From positions 1 through 64,000 of the forward strand of contig NZ_LN881716.1 of the NCBI RefSeq assembly GCF_001457435.1: a stretch of 64,000 nt of DNA. Direction: 5' to 3'. Each line of letters starts with the position of its first letter. Position 1 is the first letter of the stretch. The DNA comes from Actinobaculum massiliense (GTDB taxonomy: Bacteria; Actinomycetota; Actinomycetes; Actinomycetales; Actinomycetaceae). The notes under the pieces were generated by a model. The model was not told the DNA's origin. It worked only from the letters and a program-made list of their open reading frames with translations, and ran no database searches. Positions 28,537 to 64,000 of this stretch are shown here, in pieces. The translations under genes and the position numbers were made by a program.

Positions 28537-28700
28537 CGGAAATCCTCCCGCCGCTCTCGAACAACTGTTTGAATCCTAGCAACTGCCCCCGACACGAAAA
28601 AGTCGACCCGCGGCGCGCGTGGTGGGCGACGCCGCCCGGCTGGCCTCGCCGTGCCACTTCTCGCCGCCCGGCCAGCCCGCCGCATCCCGGCCGCCCGCGC

Positions 28701-29336
28701 CTAATTCGCTCCCTCCCGCGGAGCTACCGCCCCGTGGCGCCGGCTAAGGCGCTCGGCGGAGGCCCACATGCGCTGGGCATCGGTCAAGCCCGGCCCCTCG
28801 GCGCGCGGAAGCATTCCGGCCCCGCCGTGCTGACCATTATCTACTTCGTCGTCCAGAGCATGAGCCCCGCCGCGCCAGGAATGGCAAATCGCGATCGCCA
28901 AAGCGTCCGCCGCGTCCTTGGGGCGCGGCAACTCTGCCAGCCCCAGAATCCGTTGCACCATGGTTTGCACCTGGAGCTTGCCGGCCCGCCCCGAGCCGGT
29001 CACCGCGGCCTTAACCTCGGAGGGAGAATGCATGCCCAGCGGAAGCCCAGCGCGCGCCGCGGCGAGCATCGCCACTCCCGCCACCTGGGCGGTGGAGGTT
29101 ACCGAACGCATATTGTCTTGCGCAAACACTCGTTCAATCGCCACCACATCGGGCGAAAATTCCGCAATTGCTTCCTCGATGGCGTCGAAAACCAGGAGCA
29201 GGCGCTTATGCGGGGAAAGCTCCTTGGGTGAACGCGCCACCCGCATATCAATAAGGCTCACCCGCCGCGAGGAGTCGGCATCAATGGTGCCGAGCCCGCA
29301 ACGGGTGAGCCCCGGATCAATTCCTAGAACGCGCAA
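28701..29336 (-). CDS. ruvC: Crossover junction endodeoxyribonuclease RuvC
   Basis: Resolves Holliday junctions by symmetric cleavage. The 211 residues begin MRVLGIDPGLTRCGLG with the first catalytic Asp. The Glu in DVVAIERVFAQDN and the later Asp residues in PKDAADALAIAICH complete the acidic active site. The C-terminal 40 residues extend beyond the usual core. The start is TTG directly after the yebC stop (TAA-TTG) with GAGGA just upstream, which decides it. Positions 29044-29183 of this gene are the source of the corrupted copy embedded at 31117-31256. Confidence 0.95.
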   Translation of the reverse strand: MRVLGIDPGLTRCGLGTIDADSSRRVSLIDMRVARSPKELSPHKRLLLVFDAIEEAIAEFSPDVVAIERVFAQDNMRSVTSTAQVAGVAMLAAARAGLPLGMHSPSEVKAAVTGSGRAGKLQVQTMVQRILGLAELPRPKDAADALAIAICHSWRGGAHALDDEVDNGQHGGAGMLPRAEGPGLTDAQRMWASAERLSRRHGAVAPREGAN

Positions 29337-30089
29337 TTAATCCTCAAGTTCCGCCATAACCTCATCCGGGATGTCCGCGTTGGTGAAGACTTCCTGGATA
29401 TCGTCGACGTCGTCGAGCGCATCGGTGAGCTTAAGGACCTTCTTGGCGCCTTCAATATCGAGCGGGACCTCGGTGGAGGGAACCCACTTCGATTCGGCCG
29501 AGTTGTACTCGATTCCGTTCTCCTGGAGCGCGGTACGCACCGCCACAATATCCTTCGGATCGGATTCAATAATGAACACGTCGCCAGCTTCAGAGACTTC
29601 TTCAGCTCCGGCGTCAAGCACGGCCATCAAAATATCGTCCTCGGTGTTCTCCCCCTTAACCGCTTCCACGATTCCGCGACGGTTAAAGAGGTACGCCACC
29701 GAACCCGGGTCGGCGAGACTACCACCGTTGCGCGAAAGCGCGGTGCGCACTTCCGAAGCCGCGCGGTTGCGGTTATCGGTCAGGCACTCGATCAGAATCG
29801 CCACGCCGTTGGGACCGTAGCCCTCGTACATAATCGATTCGTACTGCACCGAATCATCGGTTTCACCCGAACCGCGCTTGACGGCGCGATCAATATTATC
29901 GGCGGGAACCGAGGCGCGCTTCGCCTTCTGGATCGCGTCGTACAGAGTGGGGTTACCGTCGGGGTCGCCGCCACCGGTACGCGCGGCCACCTCGATATTC
30001 TTGACGAGGCGCGCAAACATCTTGCCGCGCTTGGCGTCATTCGCTGCCTTCTTATGCTTTGTGGTCGCCCACTTAGAGTGTCCCGACAC
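29337..30089 (-). CDS. yebC: YebC/PmpR-family protein (TACO1-like)
   Basis: Conserved protein of about 250 aa, annotated as a transcriptional regulator and, for some members, implicated in translation. It begins [21 protein letters not shown], the invariant YebC start, here after a GTG at 30089 with AGGGAG 9 nt upstream. The frame stays open for 28 more codons, but these do not resemble the family. Further blocks are [21 protein letters not shown] and the [21 protein letters not shown] core (landmarks [10 protein letters not shown] and TDNRNR). Its place ahead of ruvCAB is the standard bacterial order and its stop abuts ruvC. Confidence 0.93.
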
Positions 30090-30245
30090 TGCAGTAGTCT
30101 CCCTCTCCAAACAACAATTACCGCCGAGCATTGTACGCCGATTACGCCCCTCGCGCTGTAACCGGCGTTTCACTTAGCGCGTTTCTTCTCAATTTCGTGC
30201 GCGAGGGTGGGCGCGCGTCTTCCGCGACGGCCGCGCCCCGCTCGC

Positions 30246-30830
30246 CTACCCCGAGTGGTCAGAAATTTCGGTTGGTGCACTGACTTCGCCAGCCAGCCAT
30301 TTTCGCGTGACGGCGCCCAAACATTCCGGATAAACAGGAACGTTTTCCAGTCCGTCACCGTTTTCGACGACGTCGATGTTCAGCCAGCGAATGTCATCGA
30401 GAACTTCCTTTTCTATCGCCGTCCACTCGGTATTTTTTCCTGCCACCGCTTGCCGGGCTTCTTCCTCGCTGAGCCGAACCAGAAAGAACTGCTCGTCTTG
30501 GCGGCGAGTCTCGCGCGCGAAGTGAAACATAGCCTGGCGTTTGAGAACAGGGCCTTCCAGGCGCTCGGCCGCTATGCGCAAACCAGTTTCTTCGGCGAGC
30601 TCGCGCACCGCGCCTTCGCGCGGATCTTCTCCCGGCCCGATCCCTCCACCCGGAGTGAACCACCAGCGATGGGCGGCGTCGTCGCCATCATGGCCAAGTT
30701 GTAGCAAGATTCGCTCATCGCTATCCACCGCGATCACGCGGGCGGCGCGGCGAAACGGAATACCGTCTTCGTCCGGCGTCCACTCCCGCTCAAGTTCTTC
30801 AAAATCTCCTTCGGTACTTTTACTCATCAT
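30246..30830 (-). CDS. NUDIX hydrolase
   Basis: Nudix-fold pyrophosphohydrolase of 194 aa. The Nudix box is complete: GGIGPGEDPREGAVRELAEE then TGL, matching G-x5-E-x7-RE-x2-EE-x-G. Such enzymes cleave nucleoside diphosphates linked to another group. The substrate cannot be told from sequence. The fold is preceded by RRAARVIAVDSDERILLQLG, a typical first strand of the domain. Its start overlaps the end of the disrupted membrane-protein gene by about 11 nt, so it belongs to the pgsA-patA-pimA transcript. It lies 156 nt upstream of yebC. Confidence 0.88.
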   Translation of the reverse strand: MMSKSTEGDFEELEREWTPDEDGIPFRRAARVIAVDSDERILLQLGHDGDDAAHRWWFTPGGGIGPGEDPREGAVRELAEETGLRIAAERLEGPVLKRQAMFHFARETRRQDEQFFLVRLSEEEARQAVAGKNTEWTAIEKEVLDDIRWLNIDVVENGDGLENVPVYPECLGAVTRKWLAGEVSAPTEISDHSG

Positions 30831-31605
30831 CTATATCGATTGTTTGCGGCATGGGGGCACGCCCGGCTAAATGGAGCACCCGGGTAAGAAAAGCCTTGTG
30901 CAAGACCCGTGCCTGGGCCACCTGGGAATTATGAAATTTGCGCGTCATGCGCACATCCAGCCGGCAGCGCTCCAGATGCGTGTACAGCTCTTTGTTTTCG
31001 GCCGAGATCGCGTTCTCTTCAAGCTCGCCCACCGTCAGGCGAAGCACGCGCGAAAGCTCGGATTCCAGTGCGCGGCGCTGGCGGGCGGCCCCGGCGCCGC
31101 CTCTTATACACATCTCAGCCCAGCGCGCGCCCCCGCCCGCACCCCCACCCCCCCCCCCCCGGCCGCGGAGGCGCCCGCACGCACACCGCCTTGCGCAAAC
31201 ACTCGTTCAATCGCCACCACAGCGCGCGACCCTTCCCCCATCGCCTCCCCCCCTGCTAGATGGGTAGAAGGGCCCTGCCCCGGCGCGCGCGGCGGGCGGC
31301 TCGGCCGGAGCCTTGGCATCAAAGAGATCTTCCAGCCCCTCGGCCACAATTGGCGCCATGCTGGCAGCCAGGCATGCTTCGGCGCCGTCGGTCAAAATAA
31401 GAGACCCGGCGATATCCAGTTCCCCGCAGCGGGCAAACTCGTCAGCCGCGCTGGCTCGGGCCGCGAGCGCCTGCTCAGCCACCCGGCGAGATTTCAAAAC
31501 ATTCGAGTGCAGGCGATTGAGCCTCCGCGCCAGGAGCAGGGAAATGCCGGCGATCACCAGCACGGCGATAATCACGGCCAGGATCACCAGATGCCACCAA
31601 CTCAT
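30820..31605 (-). pseudogene. Conserved actinobacterial single-pass membrane protein, split by an apparent assembly artefact
   Basis: Two coding pieces belong to one gene. The N-terminal piece (31605 down to about 31300) has a membrane helix (LVILAVIIAVLVIAGISLLL) followed by RRLNRLHSNVLKSRR and a helical region ending near LEDLFDAKAP. The C-terminal piece (about 31090 down to 30820) reads ARQRRALESELSRVLR, then RMTRKFHNSQVAQARVLH and ends LAGRAPMPQTIDIDDE. The family as I know it is about 180-200 aa with this order, LemA-like in layout and of unknown function. Between the pieces is foreign sequence that introduces a stop at 31207-31209. The start overlaps the pimA stop as ATGA. The gene is probably intact in the organism and broken only in this assembly. 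Confidence 0.75.
31101..31256 (+). other. Likely assembly artefact: transposase adapter fragment plus corrupted ruvC copy
   Basis: 31101-31115 reads CTCTTATACACATCT, an exact 15-nt part of the 19-bp mosaic end used in Tn5/Nextera libraries. From 31117 to 31256 the sequence aligns without gaps to ruvC positions 29044-29183. By hand count about 105 of 140 positions agree, including an unbroken 32-nt match (31190-31221 with 29117-29148). About 32 of the 35 differences read C, including a long C run at 31148-31160. This pattern fits a low-quality chimeric read. The flank 31257-31300 is also uncertain. Confidence 0.85.
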
Positions 31606-63207: not shown

Positions 63208-64000
63208 TAAGCCAGCTCCACCGGCTTGATGAGCACCTTGGTTTCGGTGGTTGGCGAGAAGCCAATTTCCTCGTAACCGGTAATACGCTCCTCCGCATCC
63301 TGCGCGTCCGGGCCGTGGTCAATCGTGACGTCCATTGAGGTGTAGCGCATGCCCGCATCGCGCTGGGCGCGCATCGAGGCAATGAGTAGTCCGGCGGTGA
63401 CGTTCGCCGTCGAGCGCACGGAAAGCTCGTCGATATAGCCCTCTTTCCAGCCCAGGCTCTGCCAATCCTGCTCGTAGCGGGCGGCGATAATATACCCGAC
63501 GACGCGCGGGCGATCCCCGCGCCGGTCCACTGCCAAAAAGCTCCAGTCCCTGTCCATAAAAGCGCGTTCGGTTGCCCACTGTTCGGGCGTCATTACCGCG
63601 TAGTCGAGCTTTTCGCCGTGGAAAGAGTTGTGCGCACCGAGCACGGTCGCATCCTGCTCACGGGTTATGGGCACGAAGTCAATGCCCGGTGCCGGAGTGT
63701 ATTCGGGCAAGGAGGCTCGCAACGAGCGGCGCATTTGCACGTAACTGTAGGCGTGGGTAAAACCGAACGCCCGCAAGACGCTCATCCGCTCTGCCTCCCA
63801 CGGCTCTAAATGTGCCACCGCGATAACCTGCTGGTCTTGGCTCACGGCCAGCGCGCGCGCCGCCTTCACCTGTTGGGCGGCAAGTTCCTTGACCCTTTCC
63901 CGGGGAGCGGCCGGGTGTACGACGCCGGAGATAATCACGGACGGGTGGCTACCGGCGGTATCAAAAAGCCGGGCCATACCGTACATCTCGAGGCGTCCGC
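63207..64000 (-). CDS. GNAT-family acetyltransferase, tandem-domain type, 5' end outside the window
   Basis: C-terminal about 264 residues of a protein that continues beyond the right edge. The frame is open through position 64000, and the preceding residues (GRLEMYGMARLFD) already look like the middle of a GNAT domain. A VVHPAAPRERVKELAAQQ segment occupies the acetyl-CoA-binding position of that first domain. A second domain runs from about DFVPITREQDATVLG, with VVGYIIAARYEQ, YIDELSVRSTANVTAG and YEEIGFSPTTET. The usual R/Q-x-x-G-x-G/A loop is degenerate in the second domain. Mycothiol synthase has such a two-domain layout, but I cannot assign a substrate. Confidence 0.75.
   Translation of the reverse strand, partial: GRLEMYGMARLFDTAGSHPSVIISGVVHPAAPRERVKELAAQQVKAARALAVSQDQQVIAVAHLEPWEAERMSVLRAFGFTHAYSYVQMRRSLRASLPEYTPAPGIDFVPITREQDATVLGAHNSFHGEKLDYAVMTPEQWATERAFMDRDWSFLAVDRRGDRPRVVGYIIAARYEQDWQSLGWKEGYIDELSVRSTANVTAGLLIASMRAQRDAGMRYTSMDVTIDHGPDAQDAEERITGYEEIGFSPTTETKVLIKPVELA

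Follow-up and report, generated by a model that had tools for sequence, protein, structure and literature searches.

Two described systems come closest to the structure analysed here, the junction adapter of Nextera mate-pair libraries and the insertion of Tn5. Skewer and NxTrim are examples of trimmers that remove mate-pair junction adapters from reads. In the Nextera mate-pair protocol the DNA is tagmented, circularised and sheared, and junction adapters are present in all proper fragments (PMC4074385); their trimming with NxTrim is described in PMC6298255. Tn5 duplicates 9 bp of its target, and in commercial kits the transposase joins free mosaic-end (ME) adapters to the target DNA (PMC4248319). 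Gaps of 9 bp after tagmentation are also named in PMC11226609.

We analysed the first 64,000 nucleotides of contig NZ_LN881716.1 of Actinobaculum massiliense (the window), which contain an insert of about 180 bases at 31097-31276 with traits of both systems. With a Nextera mate-pair junction left in reads it has in common the ME sequence, a partner on the same strand kilobases upstream and, elsewhere in the assembly, junctions of 38 nt; it differs in that one ME half stands to the left of a copied stretch of ruvC and a degraded half to its right, an arrangement that presumably arose when two read tails were put together. With a Tn5 insertion it shares a 9-bp direct repeat outside two inverted ME ends. 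Unlike such an insertion, it contains neither a transposase nor a cargo gene, its ends are synthetic and its cargo is a miscopied fragment of the host. We concluded that the insert is almost certainly a sequencing artefact of a Nextera-type mate-pair library that was built into the contig, and not a real feature of the genome.

Structure of the insert

The sequence CTCTTATACACATCT, a 15-nt piece of the Tn5 ME, was found without any change at 31101-31115, as the original prediction had reported, and is the single match in the window at up to 2 mismatches (mean of 0.01 in 100 shuffles). In a scan with up to 3 mismatches this left ME (plus strand) extends to 31097, and 17 of the 19 positions in 31097-31115 agree, both changes being T to C. 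The right edge had been missed earlier. It consists of a degraded ME in reverse complement at 31258-31276 (minus strand, 13/19), the sole match in 64 kb when the reverse-complement pattern was scanned with up to 6 mismatches, and its six changes, counted by hand, are three to G, two to C and one to T. The insert is thus made up of an ME, a corrupted copy of ruvC DNA and a degraded second ME. The two ME halves are 142 nt apart, and the full 38-nt double junction is not present at this site.

Directly outside both ME ends, and likewise missed before, an exact 9-mer is present at 31088-31096 and again at 31277-31285. The base preceding the two copies differs, and the following base (31097/31286) is the same, so that the identity extends one base further. 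Identical pairs of all-GC 9-mers at a spacing of 60-399 nt were counted in the window (29 of 8297), which gives a chance of about 0.35% for a position that leaves no choice, and the position of this repeat is fixed by the ME ends. We read the repeat as what Tn5 tagmentation would leave; a target duplication by Tn5 is expected in the tube as well as in a natural insertion. At the six other adapter places tested in the assembly no 9-bp repeat was found directly beside the adapter.

The middle of the insert (31116-31257, plus strand) is a copy of 29043-29183 (plus strand) within ruvC, aligned over 31116-31256. The gene itself (28701-29336, minus strand) has an uninterrupted open reading frame and a Pfam RuvC match at E 9.4e-48. 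One base, 31116, separates the 15-nt ME piece from a match of 140 nt, in which 29044-29183 aligns gap-free with the sequence 2073 nt further on at 105 of 140 positions, in agreement with the 75 percent estimated in the original prediction. A repeat finder recovered the same pair (29044-29175 and 31117-31248, 77%), and the ungapped score of the copy against window positions 1-31000 was 72, compared with 14-18 for 12 shuffled queries. The earlier statement that the differences are almost all changes to C was also confirmed (32 of 35). With 31116 included (141 nt) there are 36 differences, 33 of them to C. The source has 50 C positions, and all of them are kept in the copy (hypergeometric P 6e-9, a value that treats the changes as independent). 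The poly-C run noted before is 13 C at 31148-31160 (plus strand), and the central stretch of 32 nt at 31190-31221 (plus strand) is indeed identical to 29117-29148. Counted per 20 nt along the copy the errors are 3, 6, 8, 5, 0, 5 and 9, without a steady rise. By codon position the differences are distributed 9/15/12, with no sign of selection on the copy at the protein level. The source sits 2.05 kb upstream of the left flank on the same strand; 31096 is joined to 29043, which implies a circle of 2054 bp (29043-31096).

Damage to ruvC itself was considered because of the 78.5% G+C of 28600-28799, but the alignment of 28720-29345 with a sister species at 77% does not bear this out. The region between ruvA and ruvC (28560-28720) is very rich in G+C and has no counterpart at the DNA level in the stretch compared from the sister species.

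The split gene and related genomes

The insert lies in a minus-strand frame at 31605-30820, a small conserved actinobacterial gene with a hydrophobic N-terminus (judged by eye) and no named function, and a stop within the insert separates its two halves. The N-terminal half matched 25 of 38 relatives (26 of 39 when the own genome is included; E up to 0.001). From these 25 relatives 19 loci were fetched, and in 18 of the 19 both halves are in one frame, as read by eye from the translations; the exception, L015, breaks off after an X. In the sister species (G001) the gene is one uninterrupted frame of 206 codons. A stretch of 14 kb from this species has the same gene order as the window, namely ruvA, ruvC, yebC, Nudix, the split gene and a glycosyltransferase, and between 30975 and 31325 the two no longer match at the DNA level. 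When the flanks were joined with a single 9-mer, by removal of 189 nt, a frame of 198 open codons resulted, compared with the 206 of the sister species. Neither Pfam nor NCBIfam gave a match for the sister species protein at E 0.01, nor did Pfam for the two halves in the window. For the neighbouring glycosyltransferase the nearest named genome was Peptidiphaga gingivicola at 69%, in a comparison from which the records of the own genome may be left out.

The original prediction had named the same insert in an independent relative as a finding that would speak against it. None was found: the ME was absent from all 38 relatives at up to 1 mismatch (0/38), and the gene was uninterrupted in the 18 loci described above. 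Among 396 genomes sampled from the phylum, the 38-nt junction was present at up to 3 mismatches in two, the own genome (4 places) and G232. The assembly of the latter matches the junction 12 times in forward orientation, for example at locus L089.

Adapter remains elsewhere in the assembly

The search of the contig set for the adapter, proposed in the original prediction, was run over the whole own genome (4 contigs, 2,065,185 bases) and revealed 38-nt junctions and a P5 adapter outside the window insert. Five exact ME 15-mers are present, and the four outside the insert are all in 38-nt junctions. With up to 3 mismatches 14 ME matches were obtained, each palindromic junction being counted on both strands, and 0 with the reversed-pattern control. 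The exact mosaic 19-mer stands at four places, and junctions agreeing at 37 of 38 positions were found at C3:262290, C4:280208-280245, C4:1063589 and C4:1067746. A fifth junction, at C4:1062934-1062971, agrees at 33 of 38. Altogether at least six places in the assembly besides the window insert bear adapter sequence. At C3:262258-262327 and at C4:1067722-1067783 a second, degraded ME (4 mismatches by eye, and 2 mismatches, respectively) precedes the junction by a few bases. A weak ME match on the minus strand at C3:307099-307117 (3 mismatches) may be a further degraded adapter.

Two of these places could be followed to their partner DNA. The junction at C4:1062934-1062971 is followed by a copy of C4:1061817-1061914 with 82 of 98 positions identical, and 12 of the 16 differences are to C. 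Its source is on the same strand, 1155 bp upstream, and the copy decays into poly-C and 200 N. Three C positions are altered in it, so the bias is strong and incomplete. This junction with its corrupted copy has the same structure as the window insert. At C4:9943-10063 the order is a P5/TruSeq universal adapter (9943-10000, 54/58), a 44-nt copy of C4:15482-15525 (44/44), an ME with 2 mismatches and genomic sequence from 10064; this is a whole mate-pair molecule with a circle of 5462 bp. The ME in this P5-bearing molecule (C4:10045) is also in the single and not in the 38-nt double form. A poly-T stretch and an N stand shortly before the P5/TruSeq adapter (region C4:9895-10063). Together with the window insert, the implied circles at the three places are 2054, 1117 and 5462 bp.

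Over C4:1062934-1063626 adapter junctions and corrupted copies were seen on both sides of the 200 N. To the right of this gap, 1063398-1063459 repeats 1058872-1058933 in inverted orientation (55/62, with 7 of 7 changes to G), which simple mate-pair geometry does not give. A search of six stretches (118,405 of 2,065,185 bases) yielded no partner DNA for the junctions at C3:262 kb, C4:280 kb and C4:1067 kb, the best ungapped scores being 17-18 and one of 25, with 14-18 for shuffled queries. The flanks of the weak ME match at C3:307 kb had no partner in the searched stretches either. A scan for the 3' part of the TruSeq adapter (up to 3 mismatches) gave 6 forward and 0 reverse matches, and 0 in the reversed-pattern control. 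One of them, C4:9983, lies within the P5 adapter, and the five others, with 2 mismatches at C4:301678-301695 and 3 elsewhere, including one at 63775-63792 of the window, may be due to chance. A plasmid search gave no match.

Origin of the insert and its consequences

A left flank followed by an adapter and then by same-strand DNA from 2.05 kb upstream is the order that a mate-pair circle produces. We concluded that the library was of the mate-pair kind because 38-nt junctions are present elsewhere in the assembly together with a P5/TruSeq adapter, and in such a library the circularisation of a fragment, here of approx. 2.05 kb, is meant to yield just this kind of chimera. During library making Tn5 would have cut the genome at 31088-31096, once or repeatedly, and placed an ME adapter on each side of the cut, with duplication of the 9-bp target. 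The piece to the left (2054 bp, about 29043-31096) would then have closed into a circle in which the adapter links its end to its beginning within ruvC. Read tails of low quality that were left untrimmed on both sides, one running from the flank into the ME and then into ruvC with errors to C, the other from the flank back to the degraded ME, may finally have joined two contig ends through the assembler or a gap closer. That read tails and gap closing were the cause, and that a single cut, or else a preferred Tn5 site, produced the two flanks as sister ends, we infer from this arrangement. Errors to C on the left and partly to G in the right ME suit reads that enter the insert from either side. 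In detail, the mechanism does not explain why the 32-nt core is clean or why a second ME half is absent on the left. If the insert arose in this way, the true genome has one 9-bp copy at the site and no insert.

Paired-end kits contain this ME too, and read-through in an ordinary Nextera paired-end library could place it in a read; a circle could also be made without Tn5 by ligation of the ring adapter, and a ring adapter with these 38 nt has been ligated to sonicated DNA (PMC7357533). We regard such a source as very unlikely, because the 38-nt junctions stand back to back, P5/TruSeq lies outside and the ME inside, and the distance to the partner DNA, which lies on the same strand, is 1.1-5.5 kb, all of which speak for circles; the 9-bp repeat in the window speaks for Tn5, though it is absent at the six other places. 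The anatomy of 9 bp, ME, cargo, ME and 9 bp would also be expected if a short ME-ended element carrying a fragment of ruvC had inserted in the cell and left the duplication. This is highly improbable. The ends resemble the mosaic end, whose 19-mer is exact at four places of the assembly, and not the natural outside and inside ends of Tn5/IS50. The changes in the cargo, 33 of 36 to C, show no trace of selection, and an Illumina P5 adapter and mate-pair junctions are present elsewhere in the assembly. Furthermore, the Tn5-type DNA-binding family PF14706 had 0 matches in the own genome, with a positive control in E. coli (PF02281 matched in no genome, controls included, and is uninformative), and the mosaic end is described as a hyperactive replacement made in vitro (PMC4248319).

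The gap-free match of 105/140 to ruvC could also be taken for a natural duplication of part of the gene that decayed as a pseudogene. The original prediction had argued that the adapter and the one-sided substitutions speak against this, and the counts bear it out, with 0 of 50 C positions changed and nearly every change going to C. The exact 32-nt core, the adapter at the edges, the second place of the same structure in this assembly and the 14-kb stretch of the sister species, which has an unbroken gene and no aligning ruvC copy, point the same way, and we hold such a duplication to be extremely improbable. A real short element with mosaic-end-like termini that captured a ruvC fragment, made the 9-bp duplication and had its cargo changed one-sidedly to C is likewise extremely improbable. 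The view that a chimeric low-quality read was built into the contig is thus supported by the adapters, the one-sided errors, the other junctions, the P5 adapter and the intact gene in relatives, and we agree that the insert, not being a real feature, should be masked. A search of the literature on adapter contamination of public genomes returned no paper matching all aspects, which does not prove that such contamination is unreported.

The insert falsely splits a conserved gene and adds a false partial duplicate of ruvC to an assembly that is the sole genome of the species in the searched collection. The same library adapters stand at the other places described, and two of these places flank an N gap. 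Scanning public assemblies for the junction would be a simple way to catch errors of this kind.
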